From Paenibacillus tianjinensis (GTDB lineage: Bacteria; Bacillota; Bacilli; Paenibacillales; Paenibacillaceae): a stretch of DNA of 64,000 bases. The notes beneath the pieces are model-generated. The model saw only the letters and a program-made list of their open reading frames with translations, was not told where the DNA came from and ran no database searches. The DNA lies in assembly GCF_017086365.1 (NCBI RefSeq), contig NZ_CP070969.1:2170001-2234000 (forward strand). The letters run 5' to 3'. The translations under genes were made by a program, and so were the position numbers. Positions 2,734 to 12,078 of the stretch are shown one piece after another (position 1 is the stretch's first letter; the number at the start of each line of letters is the position of its first letter).

Positions 2734-4008
2734 TTAACCAAAAATAATCTTCTGCGCTCCTTCAGCCGTTACTACCTGCTCCGTTTGCAGCGCCATGTCC
2801 TTCAGCCGCAGCTTGCCTTGCTCTGCTTCGCTTTCCCCGACCAGCAGACAATACCGGGTGCCCTTGGCAGAGGCTGATGCGAGCGTTTTTTTGAGCTTGC
2901 GTTTACCTGTGTCTACACTGACCCGGATGCCTGCATTTCGCAGTTCTGCTGCGGCGAGCAGTGCCTGCGGCATTGTCTCACCAATCGGAATGATCAGCAC
3001 TCCTGAATTCTCCTCCTGAACCGGGCGCTCCCCGAGCAGTGCCATAATAGACTCCATCCCGAATGAGATGCCCACTGTCGGATACGGGATATCATCCCGC
3101 CCCACCAGCCTGCCGATGATATCATCATACCGTCCGCCGCCGCCAAGGCTGGACGGATAGCTGCCTGTGGCATCGAAAATTTCATACACCGTTCCGGTGT
3201 AAAAGGACAGACCCCGCGAAAGGAACGGGTCGAATACGCAAGCAGCGGAGAGTCCCGTAGCATCAATCAGCTGCTGCAGGGCCAGTATTTCGAGTGTGCC
3301 GGGCTGACCAGTCAGACCATAGCGGTCTGCCAGACTTCCGAAGTCTGTATTGTCCGTCTCCAGCAGCTTGGTAATGGCGAGCAGCGCTTCCGCAGACAAG
3401 TCCTTCTGGCGGAGCTCTGCCAATACACCCTGGCTGCCAATTTTGGCAAGCTTATCTAAGGTCAGCATTACGGACAGGCCGTCAACCTCAGGAACGCCGA
3501 CCGCAGACAGAATTTCACCAAGGAACCGGCGGTTGTTCCATTTAAGGACGATGGGAATCTCCAGCCTGCGGAAGACTTCCACGGCCAGCTGCATCAGCTC
3601 GGCTTCGGCCTGCGGGCCGGCAATTCCGACCACATCGGCATCACATTGCAGGAACTCGCGCAGCCGGCCTTTTTTGACCGGGCCATCACGGAATACCTTC
3701 CCGATCTCATAACGTTTATAGGGAAACTCGATTCCCGGATTCAGCGCAATCACTTTGGCGAACGGGATCGTCAGATCATAGCGCAGTCCCAATGTGCGGC
3801 CGCCTTGGTCCGTCAGCTGATACATTTCGCGGAGAATTTCGTCACCGCCGGCATATTTGGAGGTCAGCAGCTCCAGTTCATTCAGCATGGTGGTCTCCAT
3901 CGGTTCAAAATCATACAGCCCGAACAGTTCGCGCAGCGTACCCTGTACCTTTTGTCTGATCGCCTGCTCCCGTCCGAAATAATCATAGGTTCCTTTAATA
4001 TTTTGCAT
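2734..4008 (-). CDS. hisS: Histidyl-tRNA synthetase, divergent (HisS2-like) type
   Basis: A 424-residue class II synthetase that would charge tRNA-His. Motif 2 is clear (RYEIGKVFRDGPVKKGRLRE then QCDADVVG), the histidine-binding segments are present as RGLSFYTGTVYEI and LGGGGRYDDIIG, and a C-terminal anticodon-binding domain (from about residue 335) separates it from HisZ, the regulatory paralogue. It is atypical: the usual GLDYYTGTVFE is changed, and motif 3 reads GISFGMESI, lacking the usual arginine. From memory this resembles the second HisRS of the Bacillus cereus group. ATG 4008 is chosen for its AAAGGAG Shine-Dalgarno site; the longer open frame upstream runs into the leader. Expression is probably controlled by the attenuator at 4142-4338. 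Confidence 0.88.
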   Translation of the reverse strand: MQNIKGTYDYFGREQAIRQKVQGTLRELFGLYDFEPMETTMLNELELLTSKYAGGDEILREMYQLTDQGGRTLGLRYDLTIPFAKVIALNPGIEFPYKRYEIGKVFRDGPVKKGRLREFLQCDADVVGIAGPQAEAELMQLAVEVFRRLEIPIVLKWNNRRFLGEILSAVGVPEVDGLSVMLTLDKLAKIGSQGVLAELRQKDLSAEALLAITKLLETDNTDFGSLADRYGLTGQPGTLEILALQQLIDATGLSAACVFDPFLSRGLSFYTGTVYEIFDATGSYPSSLGGGGRYDDIIGRLVGRDDIPYPTVGISFGMESIMALLGERPVQEENSGVLIIPIGETMPQALLAAAELRNAGIRVSVDTGKRKLKKTLASASAKGTRYCLLVGESEAEQGKLRLKDMALQTEQVVTAEGAQKIIFG

Positions 4009-4047
4009 CTTCAGCAGCTCCTTTTCATTAGCTATATCTAGGTTCCG

Positions 4048-4134
4048 GTAATTCCGGCAAAACAAAATAACCCCACAAAGTGGCGCTCTCACATGGAAGT
4101 TAACTCAAATACTTTGCGGGGACCCCGGAATTAC
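4048..4134. repeat. 87-bp nested inverted-repeat element between hisS and its attenuator
   Basis: The element is bounded by a perfect 10-bp inverted repeat (GTAATTCCGG at 4048-4057, CCGGAATTAC at 4125-4134). Inside lies a second 10-bp stem (4071-4080 with 4112-4121, one G-U pair on the minus-strand RNA) around a 31-base loop. In the hisS transcript the inner stem is followed by a U-rich stretch, so it could act as a second terminator. The nested symmetrical layout also fits a small dispersed repeat. Confidence 0.6.
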
Positions 4135-4146
4135 AGTTTTGAAATG

Positions 4147-4184
4147 AAAAAAAAACGCGTAGGACCTCGTGGTCCTGCGCGTTT
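4147..4184 (-). terminator. Attenuator terminator upstream of hisS
   Basis: A 14-bp stem (4153-4166 with 4171-4184, one G-U pair, 4-base loop) is followed on the minus strand by nine U residues. It stands about 145 bases before the hisS start codon, with no protein gene other than the leader peptide between the promoter and it. Confidence 0.9.
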
Positions 4185-4246
4185 CGTATCCCGCAGGGAG
4201 GTCAAACGCAAAATGCGTTAGCCCTCCCTGAACTCATTCAGGTGTG

Positions 4247-4309
4247 CTAACGCTGCTTGTGATGATGAAGCTGATTCTGTATGATGGAAATGCTGTTTAT
4301 AAGGTTCAC
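4247..4309 (-). CDS. His-rich leader peptide of hisS (20 aa)
   Basis: GTG start at 4309, stop TAG at 4247-4249; the product is MNLINSISIIQNQLHHHKQR. The three histidine codons are consecutive (CAT CAT CAC, 4259-4267) and lie six codons before the stop. An AAGGGAG ribosome binding site (4319-4325) lies 9 bases before the start. The stop codon falls inside the 5' strand of hairpin P2, which is what couples translation to RNA folding in classic attenuators. The peptide itself probably has no function beyond being translated. It is too short for coding statistics, so the case rests on position, codons and structure. Confidence 0.75.
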   Translation of the reverse strand: MNLINSISIIQNQLHHHKQR

Positions 4310-4344
4310 AGGAAAAAGCTCCCTTCAGCTTTAGATTACTGCAC

Positions 4345-4373
4345 ATTATAGACGATGAAGATCATCCATGCAA
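4345..4373 (-). promoter_or_regulatory. Sigma-A promoter of the hisS leader
   Basis: On the minus strand, TTGCAT (4368-4373) and a perfect TATAAT (4345-4350) are separated by 17 bases. Transcription would begin near 4338, about 30 bases before the leader-peptide start codon. Confidence 0.85.
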
Positions 4374-4425
4374 GCAGCATTTTCAGCATCAAACCGAATG
4401 GACTCATACGAAAAGGGGATTATTT

Positions 4426-5088
4426 ATGGATAATCAACAATGGATTGCAGCTGCCGAAGACTTTGCCAAAGCGCAGCTGGGCCGGGATACCACAGGCCAT
4501 GACTGGTTTCATACAGACCGTGTGCGCAATACGGCTGCGTTGATCGCCGGGATGGAGGGTGCGGATGTCCTAACCTGCACCATAGCCGCGCTGCTGCATG
4601 ATGTGGCTGACGAGAAGCTGAACTCTTCTAAGGAAGCGGGACTGCACAAAGTACATAACTGGCTGGTTGAGCATCTCGCAAATGAGGAGAGAATCAGACA
4701 TATAATGCTGATTATTGAGACGATGTCTTTCAGTGGCGGCGGAGGGACTCCCATGTCTACACTGGAAGGACAATGTGTACAGGATGCAGACCGGCTGGAT
4801 GCGCTTGGGGCAATAGGCATTGCGAGAACGATGGTTTTTTCGGGGGCAAAAGGGCGGCCGGTCTACGATCCGGATCTTACGCCGCGCGATGAATCGCTGC
4901 AGAAAGAATACCGTGATTATTCTAAGGGTACGGCGGTCAATCATTTTTATGAGAAGCTGCTGAAGCTGAAAGACCTGATGAATACACCCTATGGACGCAA
5001 GCTGGCCGAAGAACGGCATGATTTCATGCTGCTGTATCTGGAGCAATTTTATAAGGAATGGAATCAGGGCAGCCAGAAGCTGCTATAA
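4426..5088 (+). CDS. HD-domain phosphohydrolase (YedJ-like)
   Basis: The 220-residue protein has the HD metal-site signature: HDWFHTDRV near residue 24, ALLHDVADEK near 57, and DADRLDALGAIGIART near residue 125. This subfamily (YedJ in Bacillus and E. coli) consists of soluble metal-dependent phosphohydrolases of unsettled physiological substrate. ATG 4426 has AGGGG 8 bases upstream. The gene diverges from the hisS leader, with which it shares a short intergenic region, and is followed 33 bases later by the helicase gene in the same direction. Confidence 0.9.
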   Translation: MDNQQWIAAAEDFAKAQLGRDTTGHDWFHTDRVRNTAALIAGMEGADVLTCTIAALLHDVADEKLNSSKEAGLHKVHNWLVEHLANEERIRHIMLIIETMSFSGGGGTPMSTLEGQCVQDADRLDALGAIGIARTMVFSGAKGRPVYDPDLTPRDESLQKEYRDYSKGTAVNHFYEKLLKLKDLMNTPYGRKLAEERHDFMLLYLEQFYKEWNQGSQKLL

Positions 5089-5121: not shown

Positions 5122-6567
5122 ATGAGTGAGTTACAGTTTAGAGATTATGATTTAAATGAAGAGATTATCAAGGCACTGGACGTTCTTGGCTATCATAGCC
5201 CGACCGAAGTACAGAGCAAGGTCATTCCGGCCGCTCTGAAGGGACAGGATCTGATCGTCAAATCACAGACCGGCAGCGGCAAAACGGCCTCGTTCGGCAT
5301 CCCGGTCTGTGAACTGGTGGATTGGGCGGAGAACAAACCGCAGGTCTTGGTGCTGACTCCGACAAGGGAATTAGCCGCACAGGTCAAGGAAGACATTACG
5401 AATATCGGACGCTTCAAGCGGATCAAAGCGGTGGCCTTATTCGGTAAGCAGCCGTTTGCCCCGCAGAAGATTGAGCTGACACAAAAAACGCATGTTGTAG
5501 TAGGCACGCCTGGACGGGTGTTTGACCATATCGAACGCGGCACACTGCCGCTGAACCGGATCAAGACGCTCGTCATTGACGAAGCGGATGAAATGCTCAG
5601 CATGGGCTTTATCGAGCAGATTGAGAAGATCATCCAGCAGCTTCCGCGGGAGCGGGTCACAATGCTGTTCTCGGCGACATTGCCGGAGGCTGTAAAGAAC
5701 CTGTGCCGTAAATATATGACTCAGCCGGTAGATATTGAGATCGAGGCTGCCGGGATGACTACTGCATCCATTGAGCATGCCCTGATTGAAGTGAGACAAG
5801 CGGCCAAGTTCGCGCTGCTGCTCGATTTGCTTACGGTAGAGAATCCGGACAGCTGCATTATTTTTTGCCGCACCCAGGATCAGGTGAATGCGTTGTTCCG
5901 CGGGATGGCCGATCAGGAGCTTCCGGTGGACAAAATCCACGGGGGGATGATGCAGGACGAGCGGTTTGAAGTGATGAACGCTTTTAAGCGAGGCCAGTTC
6001 CGCTATTTGATCGCTACGGATGTTGCTGCCCGCGGCATTGATATCGAGAACATTACCCATGTCATCAACTATGATATCCCGATGGAAAAAGAGAGCTATG
6101 TGCACCGCACCGGCCGGACGGCCCGCGCAGGCAAAAGCGGTAAAGCCATCACGTTTGTTACGCCAAATGAACACAAATGGGTGGCGGACATTGAAGGCTA
6201 TATCGGCTTCAGCATTCCGGTGATGAAGGCTCCCTCGGAGGATGCCGTAGCGTATGCCAAACCGGCTTTTGAGCAGAAGCTTGGCAAGCAGCAGGTGCGC
6301 AAGGTTGGTAAGACTGAGGTCATGAACCAGAACATCATGAAGCTGTATTTCAACGGCGGCAAGAAAAAGAAGCTCAGAGCAGTGGATTTCGTCGGCACCA
6401 TTGCGAAGCTTGAGGGAATCACCGCCGATGATATCGGGATCATTACCATTCAGGATAACGTAACCTATGTGGACATTCTGAACGGTAAAGGCGCACTGGT
6501 CTTGCAGGCGATGAGAGACACTACGGTAAAAGGCAAGCTGCTTAAGGTGCATATTGCAAAAAAGTGA
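5122..6567 (+). CDS. dbpA: DEAD-box ATP-dependent RNA helicase DbpA (YxiN)
   Basis: Two RecA-like domains carry the full DEAD-box motif set: Q-motif region, [12 protein letters not shown] (I), PTRELA (Ia), TPGRV (Ib), DEAD (II), SAT (III) and [10 protein letters not shown] (VI). The last 75 or so residues form the DbpA/YxiN RNA-binding domain ([19 protein letters not shown] to HIAKK), which in studied members recognises hairpin 92 of 23S rRNA and directs the helicase to late 50S assembly. At 481 residues it has the expected length. The start has a GGAAGGA-type ribosome site. It could be co-transcribed with the HD hydrolase gene; a terminator follows. Confidence 0.96.
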
Positions 6568-11994: not shown

Positions 11995-12078
11995 GCGGTC
12001 GTGGCGGAATTGGCAGACGCGCACGGTTCAGGTCCGTGTGGTAGAAATATCGTGGAGGTTCGAGTCCTCTCGACCGCA
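11995..12078 (+). tRNA. tRNA-Leu (anticodon CAG)
   Basis: An 84-base class II tRNA. The acceptor stem GCGGTCG / CGACCGC ends in discriminator A; CCA is not encoded. The anticodon loop TTCAGGT sits on a perfect ACGG/CCGT stem, a long variable arm follows, and the T-loop reads GTTCGAGTC. It is a single tRNA transcript with its own promoter and terminator. Confidence 0.97.

Follow-up and report, generated by a model that had tools for sequence, protein, structure and literature searches.

In the enterobacterial his and trp leaders (RF00514 and kin), the position of the ribosome selects between alternative hairpins, and a stalled ribosome leads to read-through. The common control of synthetase genes in Firmicutes is the T-box, which reads tRNA directly and without translation. 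Leader peptides in bacilli were treated in an earlier survey that we take to be the work of Naville and Gautheret. Published in Genome Biol. in 2010 (PMC2965389), it predicted for the hisS* and hisZ of bacilli a His leader peptide, with a His-codon uORF and a premature terminator before the hisS paralogue and a T-box on the housekeeping hisS. The locus described here has the same composition, a His-codon uORF and a predicted terminator before a hisS paralogue, and this type of attenuator is thus already known. The passages of PMC2965389 on hisS*/hisZ describe a His-codon uORF and sequence clustering; Tyr codons, a replaced tyrS T-box or copies ahead of Nudix and other genes are not mentioned there, and 'Paenibacillus' occurs 0 times in the main text. 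His-rich attenuators before his operons have been described in the B. cereus group, Peptostreptococcaceae and Erysipelotrichales (Ashniev et al. 2022, PMC9413887). Like the present leader, these Firmicute elements have several His codons (3-5) ahead of attenuator, antiterminator and terminator hairpins, but they stand before biosynthetic operons instead of hisS2, and the word 'hisS' is absent from the main text. Another leader-peptide attenuator on an aminoacyl-tRNA synthetase gene is uORFC-8-2, which the accessible text of its report (PMC8632094, 2021) places exclusively upstream of cysS in Rhodobacterales; it differs in its Cys codons and in belonging to alphaproteobacteria. The accessible text of PMC11109978 makes no mention of hisS, Paenibacillus, Brevibacillus, histid, nudix or tyrS, and the titles and abstract openings surveyed in the open-licence PMC literature give no account of a Paenibacillales family, of Tyr codons or of a T-box-to-leader-peptide replacement. 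The family in Paenibacillales, its His/Tyr switches and a single putative T-box replacement, all computational, thus appear to be new, in that we have not seen them in this literature.

We analysed a window of 64,000 nucleotides, the whole stretch of Paenibacillus tianjinensis DNA given above, in which a gene for a second histidyl-tRNA synthetase, hisS2, is preceded by the following leader.

4368..4373, minus strand: -35 hexamer TTGCAT, weak (3/6 against TTGACA)
17 nt, minus strand: spacer between the -35 and -10 hexamers
4345..4350, minus strand: -10 hexamer, exact TATAAT
4319..4325, minus strand: ribosome-binding site AAGGGAG of the leader frame, upstream of the uORF
4247..4309, minus strand: leader uORF VNLINSISIIQNQLHHHKQR, GTG start, 20 codons plus TAG
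4259..4267, minus strand: His control codons CAT CAT CAC (-18, -15 and -12 from the stop)
4246..4253, minus strand: P2 5' arm GCGTTAGC, overlapping the stop codon
4215..4222, minus strand: P2 3' arm GCTAACGC, pairing kept in both alignments (A1 and A2, below)
4227..4242, minus strand: P2b hairpin CCTGAA/TTCAGG, inside P2
4223..4230, minus strand: P3 5' arm CAGGGAGG
4194..4201, minus strand: P3 3' arm CCTCCCTG
4192..4203, minus strand: antiterminator 5' arm GACCTCCCTGCG, containing the P3 3' arm
4163..4179, minus strand: antiterminator 3' arms CGCAGG ... GAGGTC, overlapping the terminator 5' arm and loop
4153..4184, minus strand: predicted intrinsic terminator hairpin (folding against shuffles)
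4147..4155, minus strand: U9 tract of the terminator (nine T)
4024-4018, minus strand: ribosome-binding site AAAGGAG of hisS2
2734..4011, minus strand: hisS2, second histidyl-tRNA synthetase, 425 aa (NF009085, TIGR00442)

The ribosome-binding site, the 20-codon frame with its three His codons, the four stems and the U9 tract all lie where the original prediction had placed them (4147-4373, minus strand), with the correction that the start codon of the frame is GTG. The promoter, which it had called near-consensus, deserves that description for its -10 hexamer but not for its -35 hexamer, and the TTGCAT/TATAAT pair is absent from the list of a promoter scan of the window. Relative to shuffles, the folding z-score was -4.5 for the 196-nt leader and -7.7 for the terminator fragment. 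The promoter scan also listed part of the leader terminator, but its 3 terminator-like sites, against a shuffle mean of 3.8, are no excess. Eight weak Rfam matches near the leader, several of which lie on the terminator hairpin, were all below the gathering score (lowest E-values 0.005 and 0.017) and were taken as chance.

The gene behind the leader encodes a histidyl-tRNA synthetase, as had been predicted, but it is not the housekeeping hisS. It is of the PRK12420 type, with 559.7 bits for NF009085 (cut-off 540) and 310.9 bits for TIGR00442 (cut-off 286.75). The P. tianjinensis genome (6.27 Mb, one contig) contains three HisRS-like genes, and the gene in the window is named hisS2 because a canonical hisS (C1:4848397-4847183; TIGR00442, 503.1 bits) and hisZ (near 155776; PRK12292.2-4, 492.3 bits, cut-off 447, with TIGR00443 also over its cut-off) were found elsewhere in the same genome. 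Directly 5' of the canonical hisS lies a T-box match (C1:4848837-4848523) of 68.7 bits, below the gathering score, with an E-value of 1.9e-14; the region upstream of hisZ gave no Rfam match at E<=0.01. T-box matches across the genome number 23 at E<=0.001, ten of them over the cut-off, and both tyrS genes have a T-box upstream that exceeds it. The two devices therefore coexist in P. tianjinensis, with the T-box on hisS and both tyrS genes and the putative leader peptide on hisS2.

We propose, with a probability of roughly 0.85, that the hisS2 leader is a ribosome-mediated transcription attenuator that monitors tRNA-His charging and governs a second HisRS, inducible by starvation. Its parts are those of such a device: a putative translatable short ORF with tandem His codons between promoter and hisS2, a predicted intrinsic terminator ahead of the gene, and a mutually exclusive antiterminator with compensatory changes, the last being weaker in the more diverse alignment A2. 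With ample His-tRNA, the ribosome would reach the stop codon and cover the 5' arms of P2 and P2b; P2 would be blocked, P3 would form and sequester the antiterminator 5' arm, and the terminator would then form and switch hisS2 off. A ribosome stalled at the His codons would instead allow P2 to form and exclude P3, and the antiterminator would capture the 5' arm and loop of the terminator, so that hisS2 would be read through. We infer this chain from stalled ribosome through P2 and the antiterminator to read-through from the anatomy of the leader, covariation and folding. The order of synthesis further leads us to predict read-through for a transcript that remains untranslated.

To place the leader among its relatives, hisS2 was searched for in the genus, where 62/100 genomes contained it (E<=1e-100), and 47 loci of a contig collection (mostly Paenibacillus, with 3 Saccharibacillus, 1 Cohnella and 3 Bacillus-labelled records) were added. 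Among the resulting 109 loci, 87 upstream regions differed from one another over their last 300 nt, and a homologous leader was present 5' of hisS2 in 87/87: 83 were found via a pattern, 3 were placed manually, and the last is L045. In this locus (L045/L340; G055, Paenibacillus sp. HW567) the attenuator is intact and lies ~750 nt from hisS2, against a spacing of 25-153 nt among those measured. In the 86 leaders analysed together, a -10 box with no more than one mismatch occurs 82-106 nt 5' of the uORF stop in 86/86 and is an exact TATAAT in 83, and the best -35 matches at least 4/6 positions in just 23/86. The conservation that the original prediction called for was thus observed, with His codons and paired bases kept in relatives, although for the terminator, and for P3 in the hisS2 leaders, pairing is kept without clear covariation.

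Stem pairing was assessed in two alignments, A1 with 80 distinct hisS2-leader elements and A2 with 73 more diverse elements that include paralogous copies. In A1, 99.8% of P2 cells are paired and 3/8 P2 pairs carry double changes; in A2 the paired share of P2 is 99.3%, and one pair shows 16 GC-to-AU double changes. P2b is paired in 85.4% of A1 cells, with double changes at 4/6 pairs. The outer helix of P3 is 89.7% paired in A1, its middle position being unpaired in 39/80 sequences, and the count of co-varying pairs there is not above shuffles. In A2, P3 is 87.2% paired and two pairs vary as GC50/AU14 and UA16/AU12, giving 33 double-change cells where shuffles give 17.6. For the antiterminator, 97.1% of A1 cells are paired, and double changes occur at pair 80-114 (UA63/UG14/CG3) and pair 81-113 (CG76/AU1/UA1, 2 cells unpaired). 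The 3' side of these two pairs is the terminator loop, and they are therefore not explained by terminator pairing; two such pairs were reached in 21/500 shuffles and five double-change cells in 0/500. The A2 signal is weaker: 89.8% of antiterminator cells are paired, four pairs changed on both sides (39/500 shuffles equal that), and the covariation score is not above shuffles (290/500 reach it). Misalignment around indels may account for part of this. The terminator is 91.7% paired in A1 and carries no covariation signal in that alignment. Of the predicted alternation of P2, P3, antiterminator and terminator, the pairing of P2 and the antiterminator is thus kept in relatives via compensatory changes.

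Folding calculations agree with the proposed direction of the switch. When the window RNA was freed from P2 onward, the lowest-energy fold contained P2 and the antiterminator (-49.6 kcal/mol), and when it was freed only from +13 past the stop, as with a ribosome at the stop codon, it contained P3 and the terminator (-44.7 kcal/mol). Over the 86 leaders, the mean terminator probability rose from 0.64 (A site at codon -18) to 0.90 (-15) and was 1.0 for -12 and all later codons; the leader of the window itself gave 0.21 at -18 and 0.75 from -15 on. The terminator exceeded 0.5 in 59% of the 86 leaders with the ribosome at -18 and in 73/86 with the whole transcript free, and those leaders would therefore need kinetic control. 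In a second setup, with the RNA ending before the terminator 3' arm, the antiterminator exceeded 0.5 in 86/86 leaders for stalls from -24 to -6, in 61/86 at -3 and in 58/86 at the stop. Thus, the sensing codon is left unfixed by folding, and this second setup does not give a clear-cut off state. Both setups treat the RNA at equilibrium and assume where the ribosome edge lies; their direction agrees, but not the codon that matters, and since they yield different codon ranges we rejected such folding as proof of which codon is sensed.

The leader had also been described as following the classic enterobacterial his/trp logic. The proposed choice of hairpins by ribosome position is indeed shared, but there is no stem-for-stem match, no match to the proteobacterial His leader RF00514 in 3800-4500 even at E<=10, and no conserved strand that blocks P2. 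An upstream 'protector' strand as in trp/his is possible in the fold of the window's own leader and was rejected as a general feature, the pairing of an upstream strand with the P2 5' arm exceeding a probability of 0.5 in just 2/86 leaders. With the whole transcript free from its presumed start, the P2 5' arm pairs downstream with a mean probability of 0.72 over the 86 leaders. Because no conserved upstream strand blocks P2, an untranslated transcript may default to read-through, and the default may thus be reversed relative to the enterobacterial leaders.

The control codons bear most directly on what the leader would sense. All three are His in the window, as the original prediction stated, but this is not so throughout the family: codon -18 is His in 72 and Tyr in 14 of the 86 leaders, with no other residue; codon -15 is His in 70 and Tyr in 16; and codon -12 is His in 69, Phe in 9, Tyr in 6, and Leu and Arg in 1 each. 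Wider sets contain Arg (L288) and Cys (L192) at -15. The combinations HYYH, FYYH, YYHH, HYHY, HHYY and HHFT all occur ahead of hisS2. Among the 107 HisS2 proteins used for a tree made by a quick method, 92 have leaders with His at codon -18 and 15 have leaders with Tyr there; this codon changes at least 7 times on the tree, 5 of these changes being forced by starred branches (shuffled mean 14.3). The tree contains 81 proteins from the 86 leaders, 26 from secondary sets and three outgroup rows, with identical proteins merged; 35/107 of its inner branches are open, and several of the Tyr rows have long branches. Absent from the tree are L020 and L076, for which no complete ORF was obtained, L112, L123 and L141, and the secondary loci L157 and L246. 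Since Tyr at -18 stands before a HisRS, a His-only sensor does not explain those leaders: either both amino acids are sensed, or a simple ribosome-edge picture overstates the weight of the first codon. These codons, their repeated exchange and mixed combinations, and an antiterminator that is favoured for all stalls from -24 to -6 would fit a uORF that senses a broader signal than His, either several charged tRNAs (His and Tyr, perhaps Phe) or a general slowing of translation. We regard this as unlikely, though it is the most serious of the alternatives. His occupies -18, -15 and -12 in most leaders, and a sensor of general slowing would need no particular codon, yet -18 and -15 are exclusively His or Tyr in the 86. 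The sensing codon of each leader is the weakest step in the argument for attenuation by tRNA-His charging.

That the codons act through translation at all is suggested by the reading frame. Frame 0 has a start codon and a ribosome-binding site in 86/86 leaders, against 0 and 6/86 for the other two frames under a lenient criterion for the binding site. The uORF is 15-20 codons long in 86/86 leaders, starts with ATG in 70 and GTG in 16, and encodes a peptide with the C-terminal consensus QLHHHKQR; L046 is the sole leader of the 86 without TAG, its uORF stopping at a later TGA. Similar uORFs reach beyond Paenibacillales. In a sample of the class, hisS2 was found in 33/398 genomes (E<=1e-90), and 23 of the 33 upstream regions contained a run of His/Tyr codons in a short uORF, which the pattern detected in 22 and inspection by eye in L318 (HVHQH); the remaining ten loci had already been included among the Paenibacillales. 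The RNA of families f32 and f13 is very different, and the uORF (e.g. LQQHHHG, TKHHHHH) is followed, by eye, by a hairpin with a U-tract. His uORFs with a different RNA sequence thus precede hisS2 in families f13, f26 and f32; by eye, L299-L316 (family f32) and L317-L319 have the same layout in outline. Since such unlike RNAs carry His uORFs before hisS2, the association between hisS2 and a His leader would be old or recurrent. It could be argued that the His-codon stretch is kept as RNA, either as an unpaired YAYYAYYAC or by P2 pairing, with an incidental uORF and a terminator that is constitutive or otherwise controlled; the last codons before the stop overlap the P2 5' arm, and their conservation therefore need not be coding. 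We consider this very improbable in view of the in-frame start and binding site, of the many Nudix copies (below) that stop at TAA instead, with P2 co-varying, and of the His-rich uORFs that persist ahead of hisS2 in Bacilli families with very different RNA.

A T-box leader too divergent for Rfam has a negligible probability: P. tianjinensis is rich in T-boxes, one of them sub-threshold before the canonical hisS, but RF00230 gave no match in 3800-4500 even at E<=10, in keeping with the claim that no T-box motif is visible at hisS2, and the attenuator stems account for the conserved leader; a T-box concealed in it was therefore rejected. What the T-box and the proposed tRNA-His attenuator have in common is a tie to tRNA charging upstream of Firmicute synthetase genes.

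Further copies of the attenuator were found before other genes. The covariance model R1 has one strong copy in the P. tianjinensis genome (136.4 bits), its other three matches being weak or antisense, and it matched in 149/394 genomes of the family (E<=1e-5) and 168/392 of the order (E<=1e-3), two samples that overlap and in which part of the matches are weak. R2, a model that includes secondary copies, matched in 28/398 genomes of the class sample. At least two matches occurred in 29/40 genomes, which had been picked for having matches, some of them weak, partial or antisense. The 142 loci examined (L194, L197 and L202 had been left out beforehand, having no intact uORF pattern or a partial element) yielded 133 with an nhmmer match and 126 distinct elements; the nine without a match (L262-L270) are all of family f32, and the hisS2 loci of these nine genomes were read as L300-L307 and L316. 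Because secondary and weaker copies were sought on purpose, the 126 are a selected set and the following counts, with genes assigned via representatives, are not frequencies. HisS2 follows 70 elements, a Nudix hydrolase 27, a short HisS-remnant-like protein 8, a small protein of no known family 7 and a degenerate HisS 5; four are without assignment, and Peptidase_S66, arylamine N-acetyltransferase, a HAD hydrolase, an 858-aa protein without NCBIfam match and TyrRS are single cases. The representatives of Nudix, S66, Acetyltransf_2 and TyrRS exceed their cut-offs. The labels of the short HisS-remnant-like protein (HGTP_anticodon, 20.6 bits, cut-off 21) and of the degenerate HisS (a weak PRK12420 match of 18.9 bits) are tentative.

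The His-codon copies before a 156-aa Nudix hydrolase include L188, L190, L195 and L196. At L205-L208, L242, L243, L247, L291, L204, L219, L220, L286 and L287 the attenuator is kept before hisS2-remnant-like genes, which encode either a short anticodon-domain-like protein or a degenerate HisS followed by a methyltransferase-like gene. A small protein of 120-140 aa follows it at L185, L186, L189, L210, L217, L274 and L281; two representatives tested in each of Pfam and NCBIfam gave no match, and among its 82 relatives the named ones are hypothetical or uncharacterized. Of the four elements without assignment, L174 starts with a cut-short hisS2, and L248 precedes what by eye is an ABC ATPase-like ORF. 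A tree of the elements (73 rows, 122 columns) was too poorly resolved for counting recruitments, giving 6 his/non-his changes with 1 forced, and the idea that the family confers resistance to synthetase inhibitors found no support beyond the assorted downstream genes.

Taken together, the predicted attenuator is a lineage-wide module in Paenibacillales that stands before other genes too and has changeable control codons. We further think it somewhat more probable than the opposite that this modular family has moved onto new genes and been re-tuned via codon swaps, with His codons on hisS2, the Nudix hydrolase and the small protein, His/Tyr exchanges that arose repeatedly, and the replacement of a tyrS T-box in one genome by a copy with Tyr-Tyr codons. 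Why a Nudix hydrolase and uncharacterized proteins should answer to histidine-tRNA is a puzzle that the family poses.

The tyrS case is L209/L341 (G469:C17), where a copy of the attenuator lies 5' of a tyrS gene (TyrRS, TIGR00234, 405.9 bits). Its peptide ends in INQLHYYKRR, that is, H-Y-Y at -18/-15/-12, and that of the hisS2 copy in the same genome (L179) in LNQLHHYKQR. Orthologues of this tyrS occur in 8/13 genomes of its genus, itself included (E<=1e-100). An Rfam T-box precedes 7/8 of them, four over the gathering score and three at 85 to 91.7 of 93 bits; the tyrS of L209 has no Rfam T-box upstream, and among the 8 orthologues the attenuator was found before this one only. In this one case, the T-box of tyrS appears to have been replaced by the leader-peptide attenuator. 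If so, a sensor read by translation has displaced a sensor that reads tRNA on the same gene. A rule that the control codon matches the synthetase was not established: there is a single tyrS case, and the leader of a hisS2 (L051; L156 is the same sequence) is also H-Y-Y, so codon matching is suggestive only. Such T-box/leader pairs form a natural series for asking how control codons re-tune and whether codon identity sets the response.

The surroundings of hisS2 in the window contain the following genes.

2619-2203, minus strand: GNAT acetyltransferase gene, downstream of hisS2
4426-5088, plus strand: phosphohydrolase-like gene, divergent
5122-6567, plus strand: DEAD-box helicase gene, divergent
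11995-12078, plus strand: tRNA gene, the sole Rfam match over gathering in the window

The phosphohydrolase-like and helicase genes are each neighbours in 19/47 named loci. The GNAT gene lies 3' of hisS2 in only 1/47, and an operon of the two, with a microcin-C-like immunity, was dropped as an idea on this account. Between the terminator and hisS2 (4049-4133, minus strand) lies a palindrome, TAATTCCGG...CCGGAATTA around CCCCGCAAAGT...ACTTTGTGGGG, whose inner stem is followed by TTATTTTGTTTT. It has five partial matches elsewhere in the genome, at 72-82% identity, and is perhaps a small mobile repeat.
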